Origin: Burkholderiales bacterium
GTDB taxonomy: Bacteria; Pseudomonadota; Gammaproteobacteria; Burkholderiales; Burkholderiaceae_C
DNA: 64,000 nt
Reading direction: 5' to 3'
Assembly: GCA_947453625.1 (NCBI GenBank)
Contig: CANGHK010000019.1
Location: 1 to 64,000 of the forward strand
Every line of letters begins with the position of its first letter. Position 1 is the stretch's first letter. Position numbers and translations under genes: made by a program. Positions 3,620-16,208 of the stretch are shown one piece after another. The notes beneath the pieces are model-generated. The model was not told the origin of the DNA. It was given only the letters and a program-made list of their open reading frames with translations, and did not search any database.

Positions 3620-5776
3620 TCAAAACCCCCAGCGCAGCGTCAGCCGCAGGCTGCGCGGCTCAGCCGGGTGCACATGGCGGTCGACCTGCGCTGCCAGGCC
3701 GCGCGGCTGCGAGGCGTAGACGTACTGGATGTCGTCGACCCGGCGGTCGAAGAGGTTGAAGACGTCCAGCGTCAGCGCGCTGTCCGGGCCGGCCAGCCCG
3801 TTCAGGCTGCGGCTGATGCGCAGGTTGGCTGTCAGCGACGGGATGCTGCGCACGCTGTTGTCCTCGGTCAGCGCGCCGGCCCCCAGGTAACGCCACTGCA
3901 GGCTGGCGCTCCAGGGGCCGATCTCGCGCAGCGAGGCGGACAACGAGGCCACCCGGTCGACCGCGTTCGGAATCCGGTCGCCGTTGACAAACCGGCTGTG
4001 GGTCCAGGCCAGGTCGGCGTCAAGCAGCAGCCAGGGCGCAGGCGTCCAGCGGTTGTTGAACTCGATCCCGCGTCGCTTGCTGGCCGCGCTGGCCTCGGTG
4101 GCGCCGGCATCACCGACATAGACCAGCTCGGAGTCGAAGTCCAGGGTCCACAACGCCAGCGAGCTTTGCAGGCCGGGGATGATCTCGGTGCGCGTGCCCA
4201 GCTCATAGCCGCGCGAAGCCACCAGCGGCGCCACTTTGTCGACCGCGCTGGCCGGGTTCTTGGGGTCGACCCGTATCGTCGTGCCACGGGCGTCGTTGCT
4301 GTGCAGGCCGCGGCCGGCGTTGAGGAAGAACTCGGTCTTCTGGAACGGGCCGGCAATCAGCGACAGCTTGGGGCTGAGCTGGCTGGCGCTGGCCTGGCCA
4401 GCGTTGGCCGCCAGCGCCGGGTTGGCGGTCTGGTTCTGCACCCGGTTGTCCACCCGGTCGGCGCGCAGCCCGGCTATGCCACGCAGCCAGCCGGTGAGTT
4501 CGACCGCGGTCTGGCCATACAGCCCGGCCAGGGTCTGGCGCACCGCATCGTCGCGGGTGGTGGCGGTGATCTGGCGCGCGGTGGTGTCGGCCAGGCCGAC
4601 TCGGATGCGGTCGTGGCGCAGTTGCAGGCCGACCTCGCTGCGCGCCGGCAGCCCGGCCAGCAGGTGGTCGACGGCGTGACTGGCGGACAGGCCGAACACG
4701 CTGCGCGCGTCCTGCTGCAGGAACTGGTCGCCCTGGACCGGATGGTCCAGCGCATAGCTGAAGTTGGACCACAGCTGCAGCCGGTAGCGCATTGCATAGG
4801 CCGACAGTTTGGTCAAGCTGCCGTCGTCGCTGTGACGATGCCATTGCCCCGAGACGCTGGCTCGCGCGGTGTTGCCGCCGTCAGTGGCGTCCAGCGTGTC
4901 GTAGCGGCCGAAAGCTTGGCCGTTGTAGCGGCCGGCATCGATCAGGCGCTGCGGGATCTGGTCGGTGCTGGTCCATTGGGCGTTGTAGCCCATCATGCTG
5001 GCGGACCAGCCCTGGGCCTCGGTGCCACCGCTGGCGCTCAGCACGCTGTTGCTGCGGCGCAGACCTTCCTTGACCGTCCAGGGTCCGTCATTGGACATCA
5101 GCTCGACGGCGGCCAGCAGCGTGTTGCCGGCGCGGGTCTCAGTCGATCCACCCAGCAGACCGCGCCGGTAGCCATGCTCGCCCAGCGTGAGCTGGGCCAG
5201 GCCCGTGTCGAGCCGGTTGCGGTAGCTGATGTCGGCGGCGCCTGCCGACGCGAAATCGCTGCTGCTGGCGAAGTACGGACCCTTGCGGTAATCGATGCGC
5301 TGCACCAGTTCGGGGATCAGGAAGTTCAGGTCGGTATAGCCCTGGCCATGGGCGTGGCTGGGCATGTTCACCGGCATGCTGCCGACCGTCGTCGCGAAGT
5401 CAGTGCCGTGGTCGAGGTTGAAGCCGCGCAGGAAATACTGGTTCGCCTTGCCGTCGCCGGAATGCTGGGTGACGATCATGCCGGGCACGAATTCCAGCAC
5501 CTCGCCGGGCCGCAGGGCCGGCCGGCTCTTGATCAGGTCGGCGCGGATCACGCCTTGCGAGGCCGCGTCGCTGCTGCCGATCGCGTTGTCGTAGTGGCCG
5601 GTCACCTCGACCCGGTTGGGGCTGCTGACTGTGGCGCTGGGGCCGGCCTCAGCAAGCGGCGCGTCCGTCGGCGAGGGCTGCGCTGCAGCGAGGGCCGCAG
5701 GCGGGCAGGTCATTGCAGCCAGTGCCGCGACGGACCAGGCCGCCCTGCTCAGCCGGCTTGGGGACGGGTTTCTCAT
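3620..5776 (-). CDS. TonB-dependent outer-membrane receptor
   Basis: A 718-residue protein with a signal peptide (cleavage near ALA-AA, residue 31). The plug domain follows (EVLEFVPGMIVTQHSGDGKANQYFLRG, then MPVNMPSHAHGQGYTDLNFL) and then a long beta-barrel ending in the terminal Phe of outer-membrane proteins (LRLTLRWGF). The plug sequence with HSGDGKANQYFLRGFNLDHGTDF belongs to a receptor type often found beside genes of unknown metal or organophosphate function. The ligand is unknown. The NikR-like regulator and HupE and PCu(A)C-like genes nearby suggest a metal complex. Two GTATGAA direct repeats lie just upstream of the start. Confidence 0.9.
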   Translation of the reverse strand: MRNPSPSRLSRAAWSVAALAAMTCPPAALAAAQPSPTDAPLAEAGPSATVSSPNRVEVTGHYDNAIGSSDAASQGVIRADLIKSRPALRPGEVLEFVPGMIVTQHSGDGKANQYFLRGFNLDHGTDFATTVGSMPVNMPSHAHGQGYTDLNFLIPELVQRIDYRKGPYFASSSDFASAGAADISYRNRLDTGLAQLTLGEHGYRRGLLGGSTETRAGNTLLAAVELMSNDGPWTVKEGLRRSNSVLSASGGTEAQGWSASMMGYNAQWTSTDQIPQRLIDAGRYNGQAFGRYDTLDATDGGNTARASVSGQWHRHSDDGSLTKLSAYAMRYRLQLWSNFSYALDHPVQGDQFLQQDARSVFGLSASHAVDHLLAGLPARSEVGLQLRHDRIRVGLADTTARQITATTRDDAVRQTLAGLYGQTAVELTGWLRGIAGLRADRVDNRVQNQTANPALAANAGQASASQLSPKLSLIAGPFQKTEFFLNAGRGLHSNDARGTTIRVDPKNPASAVDKVAPLVASRGYELGTRTEIIPGLQSSLALWTLDFDSELVYVGDAGATEASAASKRRGIEFNNRWTPAPWLLLDADLAWTHSRFVNGDRIPNAVDRVASLSASLREIGPWSASLQWRYLGAGALTEDNSVRSIPSLTANLRISRSLNGLAGPDSALTLDVFNLFDRRVDDIQYVYASQPRGLAAQVDRHVHPAEPRSLRLTLRWGF

Positions 5777-5807
5777 GGACGGATTCTAGGAACTCGGCAT
5801 GACCCGT

Positions 5808-5833
5808 GTATGAAGTGCTGAAAAATCGTATGA
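5808..5833. promoter_or_regulatory. Direct repeat GTATGA..GTATGA upstream of the TonB receptor
   Basis: GTATGA occurs at 5808-5813 and again at 5828-5833, exactly 20 bp apart, each followed by A. They sit 32-57 bp upstream of the receptor start. The half-site of E. coli NikR is GTATGA (paired there with TCATAC as an inverted repeat), and a NikR-like gene lies in the same cluster. Here the halves are direct, not inverted, so binding by that regulator is only a hypothesis. A TAGAAT hexamer on the minus strand (5783-5788) could be a -10 element. Confidence 0.4.
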
Positions 5834-6027
5834 ACCGGGGTGGCTGAACGCCGCTGCGCGGCATGCCGATGGGCGCCCGCTGCCGCTGCTGGCTTGTCAT
5901 CGCTGAGCCACGTCACTGTCACATCGGGTCGCTATCGTCCTCCCCGCTCACCCGCAGGGTGGGCTGTTTGCCTGCCGCACCGGCAGCCCGCCGCGGCCCT
6001 TCATCCCCAGCCTTGAGGTTTCAAGAC

Positions 6028-6540
6028 ATGAACAAACCATCGAACAAAAGAGCGATTTGCCACGCCGCCTGTGCCAGCGCCTTGTTGGCCTTGCTGAGTG
6101 CCTGCGGCGGCGGCGACTCCATCACGCCGTCCGCCGATGTGGCCACCAACGCCGACAAGCAGAGCAGCTTCGTCGCCGACTACACCCAGGGCCTGAAGGT
6201 CCTGAACACCTATGCCGGACTGACCAGCGCTGCCTTCCTCGACCTGTTCGACGCTGGCCTGCTCGACGCCGGCAACACCAAGCCGATGCTCAGCGTGAGT
6301 CTGGCGCAGGAAGCCGCCGCGATGGCCGCCTCACCCGACCTGCCCTCGTTCCCGATGGCCACCTTGTCGACCGCCAGCATCAGCGCCTGCGACGCCAGCA
6401 ATGTCTGCACGCTCACCGGCACCCTGAGCAACAACGACGTCGACGGCAGCGCCGACAACACCACCGCGATCACCTTCACCAGCCGGGTCAAGTACAGCGA
6501 CGGCAAGTTCCGCCTGCTCGGCGACGGCTCGGCCAGCTGA
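6028..6540 (+). CDS. Small lipoprotein of unknown function
   Basis: A 170-residue protein. The chosen ATG gives a classical lipoprotein signal ending in LLALLSACGGGD, with the lipidated Cys near residue 26. The mature part is Asp/Ser/Thr/Ala-rich, has a paired Cys motif (CDASNVC) that could form a disulfide, and shows no recognised enzyme motif. It is the first gene of the plus-strand run divergent from the TonB receptor and lies 52 bases before the PHP-domain gene. It may be an outer-membrane-attached partner of the receptor; that is inference from position only. Confidence 0.75.
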   Translation: MNKPSNKRAICHAACASALLALLSACGGGDSITPSADVATNADKQSSFVADYTQGLKVLNTYAGLTSAAFLDLFDAGLLDAGNTKPMLSVSLAQEAAAMAASPDLPSFPMATLSTASISACDASNVCTLTGTLSNNDVDGSADNTTAITFTSRVKYSDGKFRLLGDGSAS

Positions 6541-6592
6541 CCGGCCACAGCGCGCCGTTCCAACCCGATTTCCGCACCCCAAGGACTTCCCC

Positions 6593-8740
6593 ATGAACCA
6601 CTCACCGCGCTTGCGCCAAACCGCCCTGGCCGTGGCCAGCCTGGCCGCCGCCTTGTCCGCCGTCGCGCCCGATCTGGCGCGTGCCGCCGACAAGGCCGCG
6701 ACCAAGGCCGCCGGCACCTATGTCACCGGCGACTTCCACAACCACACCACTTGCTCGGACGGCACGCTGTCCGTCAAGAAGCTGGTCGACAAAGCCGCCG
6801 GCTCGTCGGCCGGCGCCGGCAACCTGGACTGGTTCGTGCAGGCCGACCACGGCGGCAGCAGCGAGCGCAACTGCACGCTCGCCGAAGACCCGTTCACGCC
6901 GGTCGAACCGGCGCTGGGCCTGACCAACAGCGCCACCGGACCCTACCCGCCGGCCACCTACCCTGGCAGCGGCCAGCCGGCCAGCGTTGGCAAGGGCCCG
7001 AACCAGACCTGGGAAAGCTCGCTGCCCAACGGCCGCGCCGACATCCTGGGCGACTTGACATTGTCGAGTGGTGGTGCCAAGAAAATGTGGCGCTGGCAGG
7101 AAATCCAGTCCTTCCAGTACGCGATCCTGGAGGCCGAAGGCCGCACCCGCAGCAAGCCGATCTGGATCGGCCTGGAGCAGAACGCGCCCGGTCACGAGCA
7201 TGTCTCGACCACCGTGCTGACCGGCCAGCTGCCCTGGCCCAAGACCGGCGCGGGCAACGCCAACCTGCAAGCGCAGTACGAATACTGCTTCGACCGCAGC
7301 GACAGCGACACCAGCCGCGGCGCGACCAACCTGTGGGACTGCACGGTGCAGGGCAGCCCCAATAACAACGTGAATCTGGACGCCACCGCCAGGAAGATCA
7401 CCGGCAACAACAGCAGCAGCACGGCCAACCTAGGTCACCTCAAGACCCTCGAGGGCATACGCTGGATGAGCGAGAAGGCCCCGACCGGCAGCTATTTCGT
7501 GCCGGCCCACCTCGAGCGCGCCGGGGTCTACAACCCGGCCGGCAGCAACGGCTTCAACATCGAGCACCTGCGCAACTTCAACAACGCCGGCCCGCGCATC
7601 GCCTTCGGCTTCGAGTCCATGCCCGGCCATGGCGCCGAGATCAACCGCGGCAGCTACACCACCAGCGCGGTGGGTGGTGGCACTTACGGCGGCACTGGCG
7701 TCTACGCTGCTGAAGTCGGTGGCGTGTGGGACGCCTTGCTGGGCGAGGGCCGCAACTGGTGGTTCTTTGCCAGCTCGGATTACCACAACCGCGGCAGCTT
7801 CGGCCCGGACCAGCGCGAGACCACCGCCGATTTCTTCCCCGGCGAATACACCCGCGACCATGTGATGGTGCGCAAGGGCAGCAACAGCCTGAGCGCCGAG
7901 GGCATCATCGACGGCCTGCGCAGCGGCAACAGCTTCGTCGCCAACGGCCAGCTGATCGACCGGCTGTCGTTCACCGTCTGCGCCGCCAACCCGGGTCTGC
8001 CGCGCGCGGCCAACAAGGCGCTGCTGGAGAAGGCCGCCGCTGCTGCGGTCACCAAGAACAGCGAGGTGCGCATCGACGGCTGCGCGACGATGGGCGAGAA
8101 GCTGGTCGTCCGCCCGGGCGCCGACGTGATCGTCACGATCGCGCTGCGCGACCCGGTCGGCACCAACAACTCGCCTTACAGCTTCCCCAATCCCTCGCTC
8201 AAGCAGATCAACGTCAGCCAGCCGCTGAACGCCCCGGTGCTGGACCATGTGGACCTGATCAACGGCAACGTCACCGGCTATGTCGATCCGGCCAATCTGG
8301 CCAGCTATGCCGGCGCCTGGACCGCCAACAAGGGCACGCCGGCGGCGGTCAACGCCTCGACCAAGGTGGCCAAGGTGTTTGACAAGACCGGCTGGACGGC
8401 GGCCGCCGACGGCACGCTGACGATGAGCTACCGGGTCTCGGGCGTCAAGGCCTCGCAGTATTTCCGCCTGCGTGGCAGCAACCTGCCGGCCAACGTGCCT
8501 TACGAGACCGATGCCAACGGCAACCCGATCAAGGACTTCGACGCGGCCGGCAACATCGCCTGCGCCGACGCAGCCTGTCCGGCCCACTTGGTGCTGGCGG
8601 TGGCGGGCAACAAGGCCAGCCTGGCGGTCGGTGCCAAGACCTCGAGCAATGACGTGGCGGCCTGGGCTGACCTGTGGTTCTACAGCAACCCGGTGTTCGT
8701 CGAAGTCGTCAATTCGGTCAAGGTGGCCGGCGTCAAGTAA
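6593..8740 (+). CDS. Secreted PHP-domain metallophosphoesterase-like protein
   Basis: A 715-residue protein with a signal peptide (to about ARAAD, residue 33). A PHP-type metal site opens the mature part: GDFHNHTTCSDG near 43-54 and WFVQADHGG near 79-87. A later His/Asp pair lies in FASSDYHNRGSFG near 395-407. The C-terminal third is beta-rich with paired Cys. PHP enzymes hydrolyse phosphoesters with two or three bound metals; the substrate is unknown. The protein resembles large exported PHP/DUF3604-type proteins that travel with TonB receptors. An AAGGA lies just upstream of the ATG. A strong terminator follows the gene. Confidence 0.72.
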   Translation: MNHSPRLRQTALAVASLAAALSAVAPDLARAADKAATKAAGTYVTGDFHNHTTCSDGTLSVKKLVDKAAGSSAGAGNLDWFVQADHGGSSERNCTLAEDPFTPVEPALGLTNSATGPYPPATYPGSGQPASVGKGPNQTWESSLPNGRADILGDLTLSSGGAKKMWRWQEIQSFQYAILEAEGRTRSKPIWIGLEQNAPGHEHVSTTVLTGQLPWPKTGAGNANLQAQYEYCFDRSDSDTSRGATNLWDCTVQGSPNNNVNLDATARKITGNNSSSTANLGHLKTLEGIRWMSEKAPTGSYFVPAHLERAGVYNPAGSNGFNIEHLRNFNNAGPRIAFGFESMPGHGAEINRGSYTTSAVGGGTYGGTGVYAAEVGGVWDALLGEGRNWWFFASSDYHNRGSFGPDQRETTADFFPGEYTRDHVMVRKGSNSLSAEGIIDGLRSGNSFVANGQLIDRLSFTVCAANPGLPRAANKALLEKAAAAAVTKNSEVRIDGCATMGEKLVVRPGADVIVTIALRDPVGTNNSPYSFPNPSLKQINVSQPLNAPVLDHVDLINGNVTGYVDPANLASYAGAWTANKGTPAAVNASTKVAKVFDKTGWTAAADGTLTMSYRVSGVKASQYFRLRGSNLPANVPYETDANGNPIKDFDAAGNIACADAACPAHLVLAVAGNKASLAVGAKTSSNDVAAWADLWFYSNPVFVEVVNSVKVAGVK

Positions 8741-8792
8741 ACCCCTCCCTGCATGGCTTGCCCAACCGGCGGACGCCGGTCGTGGCGACCTT

Positions 8793-8824
8793 CCCAACCG
8801 GGCTCAGTCCCGGTTGGGCTTTTT
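8793..8824 (+). terminator. Rho-independent terminator after the PHP gene
   Basis: A perfect 10-bp stem (CCCAACCGGG at 8793-8802, CCCGGTTGGG at 8809-8818) with a 6-base loop is followed by CTTTTTCG. A second smaller hairpin (ACCGGC/GCCGGT, 8765-8780) lies just before it. The tract ends 19 bases before the GTG of the next gene, so it may either end the PHP transcript or act as an attenuator for the downstream operon. Confidence 0.88.
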
Positions 8825-8842
8825 CGTTTGAGGACAGTCAAG

Positions 8843-11527
8843 GTGTCTGTGACGCTTGAATCTAGCTTGCGCAAGCCGGGCCTGCGCTTTGCCGCCGGCC
8901 GTGGCCCGGTGTCGCTGCTGTTGATGGGCCTGTCGGGGGCGGCGGCGCTGGGCTGGCAATGGGTGTGGACCACCCAGTTCGGCGCCGTGCTGGGCCATGA
9001 GGCGCTGGCCGTGCTGGCGACGATGGCCGCCTTTTTTGCCGGGCTGGCGCTGGGCGCGCTGACGCTGGGACGAGCCATAGCGCGCAGTGCCCGGCCTCAG
9101 CGCTGGTACGCCGGCTGCGAGGCGGTGATGGCGCTGTGGGGCCTGGTCTTGTGCCTGGCGGGGCCCGGGCTGATGGCGCACAGCGCCGCGCTGATCGGCC
9201 CCGAGCCTTCGCCGATCTGGCATTGGAGCGTTGCCTTCGTGCTGCCCGGCCTGCTGTTGTTGCCGGCCACGGCGGCGATGGGCGCGACCTTGCCGGCGCT
9301 GGAGCGGGTGCTGCGTGCCGAGATGGGCCGTCATGGCCGCTCAGCGGGCTCGAGCGGTCTGGGCGGTCTGTACGCCGCCAACACCCTGGGCGCGGTGGTC
9401 GGCGTGCTGCTGGCGGTGTTTTGGGCCTTGCCGCAGTGGGGCGTGCTGCGCACCGGCCTGGGCTGCGCGGCGATCAACGCCTCCTGCGCGCTGCTGGCAT
9501 GGGCGATGTGGCGCGACGCCTTGCCCGCCGGCCCGGGCCGCGCGCCGCTTCGGGTGGCCGGCCCGCCGCTGCCGCGGATGGGGATGGCCGGCCTGCTGTT
9601 CGGCAGCGGTTTGCTGGGCATAGGCTATGAGGTGCTGGCCGTGCGGGTGCTCAGCCAGGTCACCGAGAACACGGTCTACAGCCAGGCGGTCCTGCTGGCG
9701 GTCTACTTGCTGGGCACGGCGGCCGGCGCGGCTTTGTACCCGCGTTGGCGCGATTTTTTCGCGGGTCGGGCCGAGGGTTCAGCCGATGCGGCCGACGCCA
9801 CCAGCCTGTCGCGCTGGCTGGCCTGCCTGGCCCTGGCGGTGGGGGCCGGCGGCGCCAGCCTGTGGTGGGCGCAGGCGCTGTGCGCCTGGCCTGCGCAGCG
9901 CTGGGGCGCAGCCCCCTGGACCGCGCTGGCCGGCGAAGCCCTGGCGGCGGCGCTGGCGATGACCGCCCCGACGCTGGTGATGGGCGGCCTGTTCACCCAC
10001 CTCTGCCTGCGCGCCCAGGCGCGCGGCTGGGCGCTGGGCCGCGCGCTGGCGGTCAACACCGCCGGCGCGGCCTTGGCGCCGCTGCTGGTCGGCGTGCTGC
10101 TGCTGCCGGCGCTGGGCGCTTGCGCCACGCTGGCGCTGCTGGTGCTGGGCTATGCGCTGCTGCAACCGTTGCGCCGCTGGCACCATGCCAGCGCCTGGGC
10201 GCCGGCGCTGGCTGCCATGGCGCTGGTACTTTGGGCGCCGCCGCTGCGCTTCATCGAGCAGGCGCCCGGCGCCACGCTGGTCAGCTACCGCGACGGCGTG
10301 ATGGCGGCGGTCAGCGTGGTGCAGGACGCCCAGGGCGTGTCGCGCCTGCGCATCAACAACCGCGCCCAGGAGGGCAGCAGCGCCAGCGGCTGGCTGGAAT
10401 GGCGGCTGGCCCAGCTGCCCTTGCTGCTGCACGCCAGCGGCGCCGGCCGCGGCGTCGACCCCGTCCCTGTGGAGAACCGGCGCGCCTTGTTCCTGGGCCT
10501 GGGCACCGGCTTCACCGCCGCGGCCGCGGCCAGCGACGCGCGGGTGCAGGTCGACGCGGTCGAGTTGCTGCCCGAGGTGATCGCTGCCGCCGATTTCTTT
10601 GCGCGATCCCCCGGCGCGCCCCAGCCGGCCACGCCGGTGCGCCGGTTGGCCGCCGATGCGCGCCGCTTCGTCCAGGCCGGTGACGAGCGCTACGACCTCA
10701 TCGTCGCCGACTTGTTCCACCCGGCGCGCAACGGCGCGGGCACGCTCTACACCGTCGAGCAGTTTGCCGCGGTGCGCGCGCGGCTGGCCTCGGGCGGTCT
10801 GTTCTGCCAGTGGCTGGCGCTGCACCAGATGGAACTCGGCACGCTGCGCAGCATCGTTGCGGCCTTCCTGCAGGTCTACCCGCAAGGCGTGGCGGTGCTG
10901 GCCAGCAACAGCCTGGACACCCCGGTGCTGGGCCTGCTGGCGCGCCCGGATGCGCCGCGCTTCGATGCCCAGGCGCCGGCGGGACCGCTCACGCCGGACG
11001 CTGGCGAGGCCTGGCAACAGGCGCGGCGGCGCGCGCGCCTGGACGACGATTTCGGCTTGCTCGGCAGCCTGCTGGCCGGGCCGGCGGCGCTGCGCCAGTT
11101 TGCCCAGGGCGCGGTGATCAACACCGATGACCGGCCCCAGGTGGTGCACGCCGCACCCTGGGACACCTACGCGCCGCAGACCACGCCGCGCCAGCGCCTG
11201 CTCGGTCTGGTCAAGGCGCTGCAGCCGCAAGCAGCCGATCTGCTGACCGACCCGGCCTCGCCCACCGCGCAGCGGCTGCAGGCCTACTGGTCGGCGCGCC
11301 AGCGTTACCTCGAGCTCGGCATGCAGGTGCAAGCCGACAGCGACCTGGCGCTGACCCTGACGCGGCTGCAGACGCCGCTGCTGGCGCTGCTCGACCTGAG
11401 TCCCGATTTCACCCCCGCCCGCGATGCGCTCAGCGCGATGGCCGGCGGCCTGGCGCAGCGCGACCCCGAGCGCGCGCAGCGCTTGAGGGAGGCGCTGCAG
11501 GCGCGGCCCGCGCCTGCCAGTCCCTGA
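8843..11527 (+). CDS. Membrane protein fused to a spermidine-synthase-like SAM domain
   Basis: An 894-residue protein. The GTG at 8843 is chosen because GAGGA at 8830-8834 is well spaced and an upstream ATG would run through the terminator. The first ~480 residues form about a dozen hydrophobic segments (for example LLMGLSGAAALGWQWVW, AVLATMAAFFAGLALGALTLG, LLFGSGLLGIGYEVLAVRVL). A Rossmann domain follows with LFLGLGTGF near 550, an acidic VDAVEL strand, and DLIVADLF near 618, as in polyamine synthases. No polyamine pathway gene is nearby. These fused proteins are largely uncharacterised; a membrane-linked aminopropyl or methyl transfer is possible. It heads a tight operon through 14534. Confidence 0.75.
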   Translation: MSVTLESSLRKPGLRFAAGRGPVSLLLMGLSGAAALGWQWVWTTQFGAVLGHEALAVLATMAAFFAGLALGALTLGRAIARSARPQRWYAGCEAVMALWGLVLCLAGPGLMAHSAALIGPEPSPIWHWSVAFVLPGLLLLPATAAMGATLPALERVLRAEMGRHGRSAGSSGLGGLYAANTLGAVVGVLLAVFWALPQWGVLRTGLGCAAINASCALLAWAMWRDALPAGPGRAPLRVAGPPLPRMGMAGLLFGSGLLGIGYEVLAVRVLSQVTENTVYSQAVLLAVYLLGTAAGAALYPRWRDFFAGRAEGSADAADATSLSRWLACLALAVGAGGASLWWAQALCAWPAQRWGAAPWTALAGEALAAALAMTAPTLVMGGLFTHLCLRAQARGWALGRALAVNTAGAALAPLLVGVLLLPALGACATLALLVLGYALLQPLRRWHHASAWAPALAAMALVLWAPPLRFIEQAPGATLVSYRDGVMAAVSVVQDAQGVSRLRINNRAQEGSSASGWLEWRLAQLPLLLHASGAGRGVDPVPVENRRALFLGLGTGFTAAAAASDARVQVDAVELLPEVIAAADFFARSPGAPQPATPVRRLAADARRFVQAGDERYDLIVADLFHPARNGAGTLYTVEQFAAVRARLASGGLFCQWLALHQMELGTLRSIVAAFLQVYPQGVAVLASNSLDTPVLGLLARPDAPRFDAQAPAGPLTPDAGEAWQQARRRARLDDDFGLLGSLLAGPAALRQFAQGAVINTDDRPQVVHAAPWDTYAPQTTPRQRLLGLVKALQPQAADLLTDPASPTAQRLQAYWSARQRYLELGMQVQADSDLALTLTRLQTPLLALLDLSPDFTPARDALSAMAGGLAQRDPERAQRLREALQARPAPASP

Positions 11528-11549
11528 CTTTTTTGCAAATACTGAAGAC

Positions 11550-12443
11550 ATGAACACGACGCCAACGATCAGCCCGACCACCGAAAACACCGCAATCCCC
11601 GTGGCCCTGCCGACGCCATCGCGGCCGGCCGTGGCGCTGCCCTGGCGCCGCTTGGCCCGCGAACCCTTGCTGCATTTCCTGCTGCTGGGCGCACTGGTCT
11701 TCAGCGCCGACCAACTGATCACCGCGCGGCGCGGCGATCCGCAGACCATCGTGGTCTCCGCCGATGTCCGCAAGGAATCGGCGGAGACCTTCAAGAGCGG
11801 CATGAAGCGCGATCCCAGCCCGGCCGACCTGAAGATCCTGGTCGAGCGCTGGGTCGACAACGAAGTGCTGTACCGCGAGGGGCTGGCGCTCGGCCTGGAC
11901 CGCGGTGACAGCAGCATCCGCGAGCGGGTGATCTTCAAGGCCTTGAGCCTGACCCAGTCCGGCCTGAGCCTGCCCAAGATCGACCGTGACGGTCTGCGTC
12001 TGTGGTTCGAGGCCCGACATGCCCGCTACGACGCGCCGGCGCGGGTGGACTTCATGGAAGCGGTGGTCAGCATAGAGCGCAGCGCCGAAACTCTGAAGCC
12101 CTTTGTCGAGGCGCTCAACGGCCGCGGCAAGAGCGAGGTCGAGAGCAGCCTGCGGGTGTTCAAGGACAGGCCGCGCGGCAACCTGGTGCAGGGCTACGGC
12201 GAGGCCTTCACCGCCGCGCTGGAGCGGGCGACCCCTGGCGAATGGCAGGCCCTGGCCAGCGCAGACGGCCTGCGCGTGGTGCGTCTGGTGCAGTTGACGG
12301 CGGGCGTGCCGGCCCAGTTCGAGGCTCTCGAGGAGGCCGTCTACCGCGACTGGAAGGACGACACCCTGGCCGAGTTGACGACCCGTGCGGTGCGCGAGAT
12401 GGGCAAGAAGTACCGGCTGCGTGAAGAGGGAGTCGCCCGGTGA
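11550..12443 (+). CDS. Membrane-anchored PpiC/parvulin-type peptidyl-prolyl isomerase-like protein
   Basis: A 297-residue protein. A single membrane segment near 40-55 (LLHFLLLGALVFSADQLI) precedes a SurA/PrsA-like N-domain (VERWVDNEVLYREGLALGLDRGDSSIRERVIFKAL). The C-terminal region resembles a degenerate parvulin fold rather than a full catalytic one. It likely sits in the inner membrane facing the periplasm as a folding factor. Its stop overlaps the next start (GTGA), so it is translationally coupled to the HupE-like gene, suggesting that it assists that protein or another exported member of this cluster. Confidence 0.7.
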   Translation: MNTTPTISPTTENTAIPVALPTPSRPAVALPWRRLAREPLLHFLLLGALVFSADQLITARRGDPQTIVVSADVRKESAETFKSGMKRDPSPADLKILVERWVDNEVLYREGLALGLDRGDSSIRERVIFKALSLTQSGLSLPKIDRDGLRLWFEARHARYDAPARVDFMEAVVSIERSAETLKPFVEALNGRGKSEVESSLRVFKDRPRGNLVQGYGEAFTAALERATPGEWQALASADGLRVVRLVQLTAGVPAQFEALEEAVYRDWKDDTLAELTTRAVREMGKKYRLREEGVAR

Positions 12444-13411
12444 GCGGCGCCGTCGCGCGCGTCGCGCGGGTTCTGGTTTGGGTCTGGCTGGCGGCCCTGG
12501 CCGGGCTGTCGCTGGAGGCCTCGGCGCATGAGATGAGCATGGCCGACCTGACGCTGCGCGAGACCGGCCCCGGCGAATTCGTCTGGGCCTGGGGGGTGCC
12601 GGGCAAGAACAAGCCGGTGGCCGAGGACTTGACGCCGCGGTGGCCCGAAGGCTGCGTTGGCACGGCGCAGACCGTGAACTGCACCCAGGGCCTGGTCGGC
12701 AAGCTGTCGGTGCAGGGTGTCGGCCAGGCCTACTCGGCGGTCATCTTGCGCATCCACTGGCGCGGCGGCGAACACAGCGTCTACACCGTGACGAGCGGCC
12801 AGCCGCAGGTGATGCTGTTCGGTGGCGCGCGTGACGGCCGCGGTGGCGCAGAGGTGGCGCGGGCCTATGGCGGGCTGGGGGTCGAGCACATCCTGACCGG
12901 GGTCGACCACTTGCTGTTCGTGATCGGCCTGCTGTTGCTGGTCGGCTTTCGCCGCCGATTGGTCGGCACCATCACCGCGTTCACGCTGGCCCACAGCCTG
13001 ACGCTGGCGTCCAGCGCCCTGGGCTGGCTGGTCTTGCGCTCGCCACCGGTGGAGGCCTGCATCGCCTTGTCCATCGTGCTGGTGGCCGCCGAGGCGCTGC
13101 ACGATCGCGAGACATTGACCCGGCGCTGGCCGGCGCTGGTGGCCTTCCTGTTCGGGCTGGTGCATGGGCTGGGATTTGCCGGCGCGCTCAAGGACATCGG
13201 CCTGCCCGAGCAGCATGTCTCGATCGCCTTGCTGAGCTTCAACCTGGGCGTCGAGGCCGGCCAGCTGGGCGTGGTCGCCGCGGCCTGGGGCCTGAGCCTG
13301 CTGGCGGCCCGCCTGGCCTGGCGCCTGCCGCTGCGCCGCGGGCTGGTCTATGCGATAGGCGTGACGGCGGCCTTCTGGTCGATCACCCGCATCGTGGCGA
13401 TCGCGGCCTGA
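12440..13411 (+). CDS. HupE/UreJ-family membrane protein
   Basis: A 323-residue protein starting at GTG within the GTGA overlap. A signal-like N-terminus ending in EASAHEMS and a ~130-residue periplasmic domain come first. Then comes the HupE/UreJ core: GVDHLLFVIGLLLLV near 150, TAFTLAHSLTLA near 175, FGLVHGLGFAGAL near 236 and FNLGVEAGQ near 263, with six hydrophobic segments. The His/Asp residues in GVDH and AHS are those thought to bind metal. HupE/UreJ proteins act in nickel or cobalt supply to hydrogenase and urease; neither enzyme is in this window, so here a stand-alone metal transport role is inferred. Confidence 0.85.
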   Translation: MSGAVARVARVLVWVWLAALAGLSLEASAHEMSMADLTLRETGPGEFVWAWGVPGKNKPVAEDLTPRWPEGCVGTAQTVNCTQGLVGKLSVQGVGQAYSAVILRIHWRGGEHSVYTVTSGQPQVMLFGGARDGRGGAEVARAYGGLGVEHILTGVDHLLFVIGLLLLVGFRRRLVGTITAFTLAHSLTLASSALGWLVLRSPPVEACIALSIVLVAAEALHDRETLTRRWPALVAFLFGLVHGLGFAGALKDIGLPEQHVSIALLSFNLGVEAGQLGVVAAAWGLSLLAARLAWRLPLRRGLVYAIGVTAAFWSITRIVAIAA

Positions 13412-13433
13412 CGCGCCCACCGGAGCACCCCGA

Positions 13434-14057
13434 ATGGCCCAGGTCCTGGCACTGTTTCCGACGCCGCTGATGCAATGCCCCCAACTGATAGACGCTGCCC
13501 AGGCCCAGAGCCTGCGCGAGCGTTTCATCCTGGAGGCCGCGCTGCCCAACCACCGTGACAGCGCGCTGGCGCACAGCCGCATCCTCGACCCGGCGCAGGA
13601 CCCGGCGCTGGCCGCGCTGGCCCGGCGTCTGCTGCCCGAGGTGGTCGAGATGGGCCGGTTGATGTTCGGCGAGGCGCTGCCCTGGGCCATCAAGGAGATG
13701 TGGGCCAACGTGCTGCAAACCGGCGCCCACCAGGCGGTGCACAACCACGCCAACTGTTTTGTCTCGGGCGTGGTCTACCTCAGCGAGGTCGACCCCTCGG
13801 CGCAGACGGTGTTCATCCGCGGCCTGGGCGGGCGCGATTTCGTCTTCAGCAACAGCCATGCCGGCACCGTCACCGGCGCCTTCAATGCCGACAAGTGGAT
13901 CGCGCCGGCGCCGGCCATCGGCGACGCGGTGCTGTTCCCCAGTTCGATGCTGCACGAGGTGCCGATCAACCGCGGCGGCCTGCGCGTGAGCATCGCCTTC
14001 AATGCCATTCCGCGCCGGCTCGACGCCTGGGGCTATGGCCTGAGCTTTTCCGGATGA
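13434..14057 (+). CDS. TIGR02466-type 2OG-Fe(II) oxygenase-like protein
   Basis: A 207-residue protein. It opens with LFPTPLMQCP, typical of this family, and has the core strands MWANVLQTGAHQAVHNHANCFVSGVVYL (near 86-113), IGDAVLFPSSMLHEVPINRGGLRVSIAFN (near 162-190). His residues in VHNH and LHEV and the Arg in LRVS fit a double-stranded beta-helix that binds Fe(II) and 2-oxoglutarate. The substrate is unknown; peptide or amino-acid hydroxylation are options seen in related folds. It sits inside the metal-linked operon, 22 bases after the HupE-like gene, and could modify a metallophore or an operon protein. Confidence 0.72.
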   Translation: MAQVLALFPTPLMQCPQLIDAAQAQSLRERFILEAALPNHRDSALAHSRILDPAQDPALAALARRLLPEVVEMGRLMFGEALPWAIKEMWANVLQTGAHQAVHNHANCFVSGVVYLSEVDPSAQTVFIRGLGGRDFVFSNSHAGTVTGAFNADKWIAPAPAIGDAVLFPSSMLHEVPINRGGLRVSIAFNAIPRRLDAWGYGLSFSG

Positions 14058-14063
14058 ATCCGG

Positions 14064-14534
14064 ATGAAACGAGACCCCACCATGATCCCAGCGCCATCCC
14101 GACGCACCACCCTGGCCGGCTTGACGGCGCTGGCAATCATCCTGGCCAGCGCCACCGGCCCGGCCCAGGCGCATGAGTATTACGCCGAGGGCTTCACCTT
14201 CATCCACCCCTGGGCCGACGCCAGCGAGCCCGGCGCGACCGACGCGGCGGTGTATTTCAAGCTGGACAGCGTGCGCCGCGACGACCGGCTGCTGTCGGCC
14301 TCCAGCCGCCTGGCCGAGCGCGTCGAACTGCGCGCCGACGACGACGGCGCGGCGCCAGCGCTGGCGGCCATCGCGATCACGCCGGCCGATCAACTGCTGT
14401 TCGGGCCCGGTCGTCCGCACCTGCTGTTGCGCGGCCTGGTGACGCCCTTGCAGTGGGCCCGCAGCTATGACCTGCGGGTGGTGTTCGAGAAGGCCGGCGT
14501 GCTGGACGTGCAGATCTCCATCGGCGCGCACTGA
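14064..14534 (+). CDS. PCu(A)C-like periplasmic protein lacking the usual copper ligands
   Basis: A 156-residue protein, 6 bases after the previous gene. A signal peptide (LAGLTALAIILASATGPAQA) is followed by a PCu(A)C-type beta-barrel: ADASEPGATDAAVYFKLDS, ERVELR, LLRGLVTPLQWARSYDLRVVFEKAGVLDVQISI. In copper chaperones the loop after VEL carries His and Met; here the stretch reads VELRADDDG and the second site reads RPHLLLRGL, so the classic His-X-Met ligands are missing. It may bind another metal or be structural. A second ATG at 14082 is possible. The last gene of the operon, it converges with the NikR-like gene. Confidence 0.65.
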   Translation: MKRDPTMIPAPSRRTTLAGLTALAIILASATGPAQAHEYYAEGFTFIHPWADASEPGATDAAVYFKLDSVRRDDRLLSASSRLAERVELRADDDGAAPALAAIAITPADQLLFGPGRPHLLLRGLVTPLQWARSYDLRVVFEKAGVLDVQISIGAH

Positions 14535-14560
14535 ACCGGCCTTCCGGCGCTGGCCTCCGG

Positions 14561-14629
14561 GCTCAGAGGCTGAGAGGAATTCGAGCGTGGTGAGCGGGCA
14601 TGATCGAAAAACTCTCAGGCTCTCAGAGC
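14561..14629. other. Imperfect stem-loop between convergent genes
   Basis: The arms GCTCAGAGGCTGAGAG (14561-14576) and CTCTCAGGCTCTCAGAGC (14612-14629) can pair with one bulge over a 35-base loop. They lie between the PCu(A)C-like gene and the NikR-like stop codon, slightly overlapping the latter. No T-tract follows. It may stop convergent transcription. The CTCTCAGGC piece looks like part of a glycine riboswitch, but the rest of that fold is absent. Confidence 0.35.
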
Positions 14630-15093
14630 GAGGGCTTGAAATGCAGGTGTGGCGCATGGGTCGGCCCCGCGCCATGCTGGTGGGGCAGGTGCAGGTCCAC
14701 GCTGACCAGGTTGAGCTTGCCGTGGTGCACCCCGCGTTCGGCGCATACCGCATCGGCAAAGGCCGCCACCCGCGCGGTGCTGCCGCGAAGCGCCACGCTC
14801 TCCATCCGGTGCGCATGGTCCAGCGGCACCTGCATCGCCGAGACCAGCAGGTCGTGTTGCCCGTGCTGCAGCCTGGCCAGGCGCTCGGCCAGGTCGCGCT
14901 GCTGGTGGTCGTAGACATAGCTCAGGCAGGCCACGCAGTGCGGCGCCGCGTCGGCCTGCAGCCGCGACTGCTGCAGTTCGGCGCGCAGCAGGTCGCGCAC
15001 CGCCTCGCTGCGGTTGCCGTAGCCGCGCTGCGTGATCCACTGGTCGAACTGGTCGGCCAGCGCATCGTCGAGCGAGATCGTGAAGCGTTGCAT
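14623..15093 (-). CDS. nikR: NikR-like ribbon-helix-helix regulator with altered nickel site
   Basis: A 156-residue protein starting at MQRFTISLDD; longer starts add a poorly conserved tail. The ribbon-helix-helix domain (residues 1-45, GYGNRSEAVRDLLR) and the ACT-like metal domain (YVYDHQQRDLAERLARLQH...AFADAVCAERGVHHGKLNLV) align with NikR. The E. coli ligands are His76, His87, His89 and Cys95. Here the first is kept (LQH), but the other three fall on Gln, Pro and Arg in MQVPLDHAHRME. The C-terminus is His-rich (HLPHQHG, THAPHLH). It may sense another metal or use a different site. It probably controls the adjoining TonB/HupE cluster. Confidence 0.8.
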   Translation of the reverse strand: MQRFTISLDDALADQFDQWITQRGYGNRSEAVRDLLRAELQQSRLQADAAPHCVACLSYVYDHQQRDLAERLARLQHGQHDLLVSAMQVPLDHAHRMESVALRGSTARVAAFADAVCAERGVHHGKLNLVSVDLHLPHQHGAGPTHAPHLHFKPSL

Positions 15094-15243: not shown

Positions 15244-15744
15244 ATGTCCGATCATCAGCCCAGGCCCTGCCGCATCCAGCATCGGCAGCCCGACCCCCAT
15301 GCCGAGGTGATCGGAGCCCCTTCGGTGCACTGCTGCGCGCTGTGCCTGGAGCCGTTGCCGGGCGCGCTGCGGCCAGACAGCCGCTGCGCCGTCTGCCGCA
15401 GCCCGCTGGCCTTTCTGCCCGGGTCGGGCACGCCAGCCCGTGAGCGCTTCGGCCGGCGCGGCGCGGTGCGGCGCGGCCGCAGCCAGCTGGCGCTGGTCCA
15501 CCTGGGCTGGCCCTCTGCGGCGCTGCCGGTGCGTTGGCACGACCTGTCGTTGACGGGGCTGAGCTTCCATGCCCCGCGCGCCATTGCGCCGGGTCAGCGT
15601 CTGCGACTGATCGACAGCGCGATCGAGGGCGTGGCCGAGGTGGTGGGCTGCCGGGCTGAGGGGCGCGTCCACACCGTTCACGCCCGGCTGATCACCGCGC
15701 TGCTGCTGCAGGCCACCGGCTTGTTCGTCTCGGCGCGGGCCTAG
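15244..15744 (+). CDS. Zinc-ribbon plus PilZ-like domain protein
   Basis: A 166-residue protein. Two CxxC pairs (CALC near 31-34 and CAVC near 48-51) suggest a small zinc ribbon. A PilZ-like fold follows: HLGWPSAALPVRWHDLSLTGLSFHAP near 85-110 has the D-x-S-x-x-G element that holds cyclic di-GMP, and Arg residues in the linker (RGAVRRGRSQ) may supply the R-x-x-x-R part. It is therefore a candidate cyclic di-GMP sensor in the cytosol. It has no operon partner; the divergent gene is the NikR-like regulator. Domain assignment is moderate. Confidence 0.6.
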   Translation: MSDHQPRPCRIQHRQPDPHAEVIGAPSVHCCALCLEPLPGALRPDSRCAVCRSPLAFLPGSGTPARERFGRRGAVRRGRSQLALVHLGWPSAALPVRWHDLSLTGLSFHAPRAIAPGQRLRLIDSAIEGVAEVVGCRAEGRVHTVHARLITALLLQATGLFVSARA

Positions 15745-15842: not shown

Positions 15843-16208
15843 ATGGACCTGAAACTGCCGATCACGATTCACGACGAACTGGACGACGAGGTGATTGAAT
15901 CCACCGGCTTGCTCGATCTCGCCAGCGGCGAGATCCGCGATGTCAAGTACCTGGACTTCGACCCCGAGGTCGACGGCTTTCCGGCCGAGAGCGAGGACTA
16001 CGACTTCACCTGCGGCATCCTGAGCAACGGCACCAAGGACGTCGAGTTCCGCATCGAGGTCGACGTGGTCGGACGCAAGTACTCGATCACGCCCAGCGAG
16101 TTGCTCGAGTTGAAGGGCCGTGCGGCCAAGCTGTTCACCGCGCCACCGGGCGGGCATCCGCCGCCCGAAGCGGCGCGCAAGACGCCCGCCAAGCGCGCCC
16201 GCAAGTAA
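15843..16208 (+). CDS. Small acidic conserved hypothetical protein
   Basis: A 121-residue protein I do not recognise. The first 95 residues are acidic and beta-rich (LPITIHDELDDEVIESTGLLDLASGEIRDVKYLDFD; VEFRIEVDVVGRKYSITPSELLEL) with a single Cys in FTCGIL. The last 20 residues are Pro/Lys/Arg-rich (KTPAKRARK), a basic tail that could touch nucleic acid or rRNA. No signal peptide or membrane segment is seen, so it should be cytosolic. It ends 17 bases before the convergent HPF-like gene. Confidence 0.6.
   Translation: MDLKLPITIHDELDDEVIESTGLLDLASGEIRDVKYLDFDPEVDGFPAESEDYDFTCGILSNGTKDVEFRIEVDVVGRKYSITPSELLELKGRAAKLFTAPPGGHPPPEAARKTPAKRARK

Follow-up and report, generated by a model that had tools for sequence, protein, structure and literature searches.

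Permeases of the HupE/UreJ_2 family are described as nickel/cobalt permeases and are usually named after hydrogenase or urease. Passages of one study describe anglerase-HupE/UreJ-2 proteins of Pseudomonadota, in which the membrane part of this family is joined to a periplasmic domain that has histidine directly behind the signal peptide; the Ang-1 domain, which starts with histidine and belongs to the type named anglerase, bound Cu2+ with a dissociation constant of 74 nM and Ni2+ with one of 220 nM, the copper being held by the N-terminal histidine and an asparagine (PMC12537917). Other passages report PmoF1 as a histidine-brace copper protein (PMC10952591, PMC8424229) and His-rich CutF-like proteins as neighbors of HupE/UreJ genes (PMC9973294). 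Here, we analyzed a stretch of 64,000 nucleotides, hereafter the window, from a Burkholderiales bacterium (GenBank assembly GCA_947453625.1, 5.18 Mb in 127 contigs; contig CANGHK010000019.1, designated G000:C19), in which a permease of this type is encoded within a compact gene cluster at positions 3620 to 15093. Like the described anglerases, it is a protein of Pseudomonadota with a HupE/UreJ_2 membrane part and a periplasmic domain predicted to start with histidine, a likeness seen at the level of sequence. Unlike them, it is accompanied by fixed PpiC-like and hydrolase partners, to which Burkholderiales add a fusion enzyme and an oxygenase. This anglerase-type permease has a previously undescribed partner set, since a literature search limited to open-licence papers found no description of this gene module. 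The terms DUF3604, "peptidyl" and "spermidine" do not occur in the main text of PMC12537917, to which this statement is limited.

Conservation of the gene cluster

The core of the module consists of five genes, which encode a PHP-type hydrolase, a membrane fusion protein, a PpiC-like protein, the HupE permease and a 2-oxoglutarate (2OG)-Fe(II)-type oxygenase. When 300 genomes of the order Burkholderiales were searched with a profile of the PHP protein, 17 gave a match and 12, own genome included, went beyond E 1e-100. Apart from the own genome, the remaining 11 above this threshold all had the five core genes within 10 kb, contig ends cutting the PHP gene of one locus (L084) and the fusion gene of another (L074). 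In the five genomes whose PHP match was weaker (best E 6e-8 to 3e-30), the other core genes were all missing; these genomes stand outside the count. A preliminary description, made from the letters of the window, had proposed that nine neighboring genes act together on a metal or metal complex, and had named a lack of conserved co-occurrence in other genomes as an argument against it. The comparison of neighborhoods gave the opposite outcome, and joint action of the genes is now well supported by their conserved co-occurrence. All nine genes were confirmed in the window, with seven in the same orientation (+ strand, ~6027 to 14534) and the genes of a TonB-dependent receptor and a NikR-family regulator on the opposite strand at the two ends:

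3620-5776, - strand: TonB-dependent receptor (TonB barrel and plug in Pfam), whose family occurs beside NikR genes
5808-5833, no strand assigned: two putative NikR-operator-like GTATGA(A) half-sites with a spacing of 20 bp, located ~31 and ~51 bp ahead of the TonB start
~6027-6540, + strand: small lipoprotein (lipobox LSAC, by eye; no Pfam family)
6593-8740, + strand: secreted PHP-type metallohydrolase, CehA/McbA-like, core gene (NCBIfam CehA_McbA, 42 bits, cut-off 80)
8753-11527, + strand: fusion of a polytopic membrane domain and a spermidine-synthase-like domain, core gene (NF037959, fused MFS/spermidine synthase, 52 bits, cut-off 40)
11550-12443, + strand: membrane-anchored PpiC-like protein, core gene (Rotamase_2, 22.9 bits, cut-off 27)
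12440-13411, + strand: HupE/UreJ_2 permease with an N-terminal periplasmic domain, core gene (Pfam PF13795, 152 bits, cut-off 24.5)
13434-14057, + strand: 2OG-Fe(II)-type oxygenase, core gene (Pfam 2OG-FeII_Oxy_5, 69 bits; no signal peptide by eye)
14064-14534, + strand: PCuAC-domain protein (Pfam, 53 bits)
14623-15093, - strand: NikR-family regulator (NF002815, 179 bits, cut-off 83; TIGR02793, 141 bits, cut-off 175)

The TonB gene precedes the seven-gene block and the NikR gene comes after it. Genes of the block are spaced 6-52 bases apart, and those of PpiC and HupE share a 4-base overlap. A promoter scan found no promoter-like site, and the ends of the cassette showed short repeats only. 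The initial statement that no hydrogenase or urease is present holds for the cluster and not for the genome, which carries a urease elsewhere (G000:C32). An accessory operon of either enzyme was considered and set aside, neither being encoded in the cluster; the search for hydrogenase did not extend to the whole genome.

Strong matches to the fusion protein occurred in 7 of the 20 genomes of the window's genus, and all five same-genus genomes with enough contig (G013, G008, G007, G004 and G012) hold the five core genes plus that of the PCuAC protein at one place, G006 and G005 being cut by contig ends. Weak fusion homologues in G009, G019, G057 and G016 were found without the rest of the core. 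PpiC is encoded immediately upstream of HupE in the 20 module loci holding both, and the remaining gene order is variable, with the fusion gene second or last, the fusion and oxygenase genes divergent, the PHP gene inverted, or the oxygenase gene first. Because the core stays clustered despite these differing orders, selection for keeping its genes together is the simpler reading. At the level of the class, six of 321 genomes gave a PHP match, own genome included; the other five matches were weak (best E 5e-6 to 4e-29), with none at the E 1e-100 level in the 320 other genomes, and within the sampled genomes the five-gene form thus appears to be restricted to Burkholderiales. Clustering of the module loci revealed no further gene recurring with the core, be it for a cuproenzyme or for biosynthesis.

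The cassette was also found on the plasmid CP099604.1 of a Comamonadaceae bacterium, where genes of NikR, TonB, a hypothetical protein (other strand), the lipoprotein, PHP, fusion, PpiC, HupE, oxygenase and PCuAC proteins follow one another. Horizontal transfer fits these data, since the PHP protein of the plasmid is closer to that of the window (74% identity) than are those of the same-genus genomes G004, G007, G008 and G012 (54-55%). Homologues of the small lipoprotein were recognized in L047, L032, L080 and L081. Nine of 18 module loci (L036, at 5354-6118, L035, L038, L039, L074, L075, L077, L078 and L079) encode a secreted protein within the core or next to it, with a PEP-CTERM motif in both copies scanned (L036 and L077). 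As the small lipoprotein occurs in five other module loci, and not in the same ones, the two proteins may replace each other.

Outside Burkholderiales, a three-gene form of the module was found. Searching 249 genomes of Pseudomonadota with HupE, we examined the 15 best loci outside the own genome (12 genomes, none belonging to Burkholderiales; E 1.3e-54 or lower) and four weaker ones. PpiC and a secreted DUF3604 protein adjoin HupE in 15 of the 15 best loci, with HupE aligned over 306-334 residues, and in none of the four weaker loci, where the alignment covered 187-222 residues. The DUF3604 gene of G798, a fragment with an internal TGA, was scored as present in this count. Thirteen genomes had a DUF3604 match beyond E 1e-30, 12 of which were the 12 genomes of the best HupE loci (Fisher p ~1e-19, uncorrected for relatedness); G759 had DUF3604 without a HupE match, and weaker DUF3604 matches (G346, G767 and G871) were scored absent. 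Plasmid annotation further shows all three genes in Pseudoalteromonas, Rhodobacter, Rhizobium and Roseibium, and PpiC and HupE only in Microvirga. No relatives of the fusion or oxygenase were seen in the 15 triad loci. Their flanks (L141-L155) include, among 100 proteins, two sulfatases, one FGE-sulfatase and two DUF1254 proteins, the last also present near HupE on two plasmids (L094 and L095).

The hydrolases of the two forms, the window PHP protein and DUF3604 (PF12228), share PHP-like N-terminal motifs. With Pfam, the window protein had no match at E 0.01 or below, to PF12228 or any other family. Profile comparison aligned at best the N-terminal PHP motif, with 44% probability when distant members were included, 6% without them and 0.3% with small alignments. 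Full-length homology was therefore rejected as demonstrated, the profiles aligning weakly and at the N-terminus only.

Predicted metal sites and altered motifs

In the window, the mature HupE protein is predicted to start at His30, after ASA, with the cleavage site judged by eye. All 19 module loci examined, and 14 of 20 triad-locus proteins, have a histidine at this predicted N-terminus. PDB sequence searches with the HupE profile did not find a HupE match. Its constant neighbor PpiC is below the Rotamase_2 cut-off in the window, whereas a Rhodobacter relative scores 53 bits. A second HupE_UreJ_2 gene occurs in the same genome (G000:C9:8769-9248); its match to the module HupE is limited to the membrane part.

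The PCuAC protein, found in 12 of 19 module loci, also has a predicted mature N-terminal histidine in the window, with a second histidine 11 residues on. The canonical Cu(I) motif of PCu(A)C proteins is H(M)x10Mx21HxM, with histidine and methionine ligands. These classic ligands are missing in the window protein, which has VELR for VELH and HLL for HLM. Its best PDB matches were 6p1g and 6p1f, and the PmoF1 entries 6p17 and 6p16 also matched. When the brace segment of the window, HEYYAEGFTFIHPW, is compared with HEYAVGKIKIEHPW of 6p1g, both brace histidine positions are present, so that the predicted N-terminal histidine and the second one stand at the 6p1g spacing, as in PmoF1-type proteins. 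Copper binding of 6p1g by such a brace is itself inferred, from the PmoF passages cited above. Unlike PmoF1-type proteins, the window protein has no link to methane oxidation in this analysis, and four of its relatives start with cysteine. Among the 12 PCuAC relatives, the second histidine is kept in all and the N-terminal one in eight. The cysteine-type proteins (L035, L038, L036 and L039), in which VCMKF replaces VYFKL and the signal starts with two arginines, form one branch and possibly have a Cu(I) site.

Three of the core proteins are enzyme-like, and the roles of the metal motifs of the PHP and oxygenase families are general knowledge. The PHP residues HxH, D, H, E, H and DxH are kept in 17 of the 17 rows with letters (the row of L084, cut by a contig end, being left out of 18), and the oxygenase HxH, distal His and Arg in 19 of 19. 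PDB searches with the PHP profile and with one relative gave no useful match. Distant PHP homologues (L090:24194-25636 and L092:9401-10810) lie directly downstream of TonB receptor genes, with sigma-factor and FecR genes nearby; HupE is not adjacent to them, the HupE genes of L090 being ~12-16 kb away.

The soluble part of the fusion protein matches solved spermidine synthases. In these enzymes, the Asp of GGGDG and the second Asp of DxxDP are substrate residues. They are replaced by T585 and H656, respectively, in 17 of 17 fusion rows with letters (L032 and L074, of 19, had none), and because both are replaced, the protein is probably not a spermidine synthase. The first, catalytic Asp of DxxDP is retained, as is the Glu that follows the glycine motif, and the protein may act on S-adenosylmethionine (SAM) or another donor. 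The start of this gene at 8753 is uncertain and may lie downstream, most strong relatives aligning from residue 29-52 on; a relative in G013 aligns from residue 1 but has an internal TGA.

NikR and the TonB receptor at the cluster ends

The NikR protein, whose start is best set at 15093 (MQRF), has RHH and NikR_C domains both above the Pfam cut-offs. The nickel site of NikR consists of H76, H87, H89 and C95 (E. coli numbers). In the window H76 is kept, and Q, P and R stand in place of H87, H89 and C95. The ligands are H, Q, Q, R in G008 and H, H, Q, R in G004, and canonical on the plasmid and in six other module genomes. Histidines at positions 92 and 94 are common to all three variants, as is a tail rich in His. 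In one of the weaker HupE loci outside the module (L160), a NikR gene with canonical ligands adjoins HupE.

NikR neighborhoods were covered in the window, the plasmid, G008, G004, G259, G064 and G822 (outside the module), with G153, G199, G289 and G319 beyond this set. The TonB family of the window adjoins NikR in four of the five other NikR loci compared, namely L047, L156 (G008), L162 (G259) and L163 (G064), and not in L161 (G004). The window receptor shares 75% identity with the TonB protein encoded next to NikR in G008 and 51% with those in G259 and G064. At least one GTATGA/TCATAC half-site was found upstream of the TonB gene in five of five NikR-linked cases, window included, and in none of four TonB genes without NikR. 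Those of the window are direct copies rather than a clean palindrome; palindromes resembling a complete operator showed one or two mismatches and were variably spaced. Seven copies of the hexamer are present in the 64-kb window, for which 0.013 pairs within 20 bp would be expected. Passages of PMC12537917 place DUF4198 loci beside TonB and NikR_C genes, and the present locus resembles these, as well as NikR-TonB nickel loci, by a NikR next to a TonB gene with GTATGA/TCATAC upstream; it differs from both by the 8.5-kb operon that separates the two genes and by the absence of H87, H89 and C95 from its NikR.

In G008, homologues of window positions 15843-16208 and 15244-15744 are followed by NikR and TonB (86%, 71%, 77% and 75% identity). 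The window keeps this order, with the 8.5-kb operon, inverted, between NikR and TonB. Because G008 keeps the pair without the operon in the same order, the nikR-tonB pair appears to be the ancestral arrangement here and the operon to have been inserted into it. A different nikR-tonB pair stands beside the cassette on plasmid CP099604.1 (NikR 50% and TonB 47% identity), and two separate linkages of this kind suggest a functional tie. The TonB family of the window was found in 6 of 18 module loci and not found in the other 12, some loci being cut by contig ends.

NikR was considered as a constant member of the module and discarded, as it is present in 9 of 19 module genomes only. At the genome level, it occurred in 7 of 12 module genomes and in 59 of 288 others (p 0.006), and urease over cut-off in 9 of 12 and 118 of 288 (p 0.02, same genomes). 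Neither excess was accepted as evidence, since five of the 12 genomes belong to one genus, g52.

Small His-rich proteins with a hydrophobic N-terminus are encoded beside TonB in L036 (4759-5277, without Pfam family) and L038 (6779-7336). Such proteins, seen beside TonB in G007 and G004, resemble the CutF-like proteins in the passages of PMC9973294. Unlike the CutF-like context, the window has no ATG-started frame of at least 35 residues between the TonB and lipoprotein genes.

Proposed function and rival explanations

A metal acquisition cassette built around the anglerase-like permease is the best explanation of these data, and we give it about an even chance. In such a cassette, a metal or a small complex of it would cross the outer membrane through the TonB receptor. 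The ion would then be held by the N-terminal histidines of the PCuAC-like protein and of the N-terminal HupE domain, and HupE would move it through the inner membrane, with PpiC as its likely dedicated foldase or partner; these roles follow from the protein families. As a guess, the ligand of the metal might be released or trimmed by the secreted PHP hydrolase, and made, modified or cleared by the oxygenase and the SAM-binding membrane fusion. Of the initial proposal, the joint action stands, while a metal as substrate is suggested by what is known of the protein families, by the histidines with which mature HupE and PCuAC are predicted to start, and by the NikR-linked TonB receptor. We lean slightly towards nickel because this receptor is NikR-linked, and the HupE family itself and the NikR gene beside HupE in G822 also point to this metal; copper is the main rival, indicated by the PCuAC brace, the copper preference of Ang-1 and a FixH gene flanking the triad locus L141. 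More tentatively, the secreted hydrolase, PpiC and a HupE protein with N-terminal histidine could make up a metal-capture unit of general occurrence in Pseudomonadota, its anglerase permease being assisted by a dedicated foldase and by a hydrolase in the periplasm; Burkholderiales would have extended this unit by a SAM enzyme and an oxygenase making or clearing a ligand, and the linked NikR of the window's genus would have been retuned to another metal or signal.

Several observations weigh against the metal acquisition reading. The predicted N-terminal residue of HupE is Asp in 6 of 20 triad-locus proteins, and that of PCuAC is Cys, not His, in 4 of 12 relatives, PCuAC itself not being found in 7 of 19 module loci. 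Among 19 near-complete DUF3604 matches, 15 lie inside the fetched HupE loci and four elsewhere (G809, G718 and G850), and DUF3604 is therefore not bound to HupE. Among 100 proteins that flank the 15 triad loci, no metal-linked family recurred (best 25 of 108 families, the rest with at most one member each). In the neighborhoods covered, NikR adjoins the core only in the window and on one plasmid, and its excess disappears when the eight g52 genomes among the matches listed are removed (2/7 vs 56/285, p 0.42). The half-sites lie at the TonB promoter and no exact one was found between the TonB and lipoprotein genes on the plasmid; metal regulation of the core operon is therefore unsupported.

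FixH has a role in oxidase assembly. Its occurrence in the flank of L141 is consistent with a copper route, in which the PCuAC protein and the anglerase-like domain would be Cu(II) carriers to HupE or to a periplasmic cuproenzyme and the nikR-tonB pair a mere landing site of the operon. The brace histidines shared with PmoF1-type proteins, the tighter binding of copper than of nickel reported in passages on Ang-1, the loss of nickel ligands in NikR of the window's genus and the nikR-tonB pair without cassette in G008 all agree with this route. We nevertheless regard it as rather doubtful, given that a plasmid NikR with all four nickel ligands stands beside the same cassette, that 6 of 18 loci have a TonB gene of the window's family next to the core, and that the locus clustering revealed no additional recurrent gene and hence no cuproenzyme. 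It is unlikely that the core is not a metal importer at all and handles an organic or phosphorylated compound, with a hydrolase outside, a permease, an oxygenase and SAM-type enzyme inside, and metal sites serving as cofactors. Such a function would account for the three enzyme-like proteins among five, the missing recurrent metal genes in the triad flanks and the distant PHP homologues that adjoin TonB receptors without a neighboring HupE; yet the constant partner belongs to a nickel/cobalt permease family and has a conserved N-terminal histidine, and PCuAC (12/19 loci) and the NikR-linked TonB family (6/18) also speak for a metal. The handling of a metallophore, raised in the preliminary description, was unsupported. 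In a metallophore cassette, an aminopropyl- or aminobutyryl-type chelator would be produced and secreted by the fusion, altered by the oxygenase and, once loaded with metal, taken back up through TonB, after which the hydrolase would set the metal free. The presence, in one cassette, of a TonB receptor and of a polytopic membrane domain that carries a SAM-type fold speaks for this idea. Another product would be possible, since the fusion keeps the catalytic Asp with two substrate Asp changed (17/17 rows). With no further biosynthesis gene recurring and TonB not found in 12 of 18 loci, we consider such a cassette very improbable.

The constant presence of a secreted hydrolase and a PpiC protein next to HupE suggests an uptake unit that stands on its own, and its metal and ligand are directly testable. 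The cassette also offers a hypothesis on the function of DUF3604 proteins and of a group of membrane spermidine-synthase-like fusions, and the module supplies a natural series of NikR proteins with a changed metal site.

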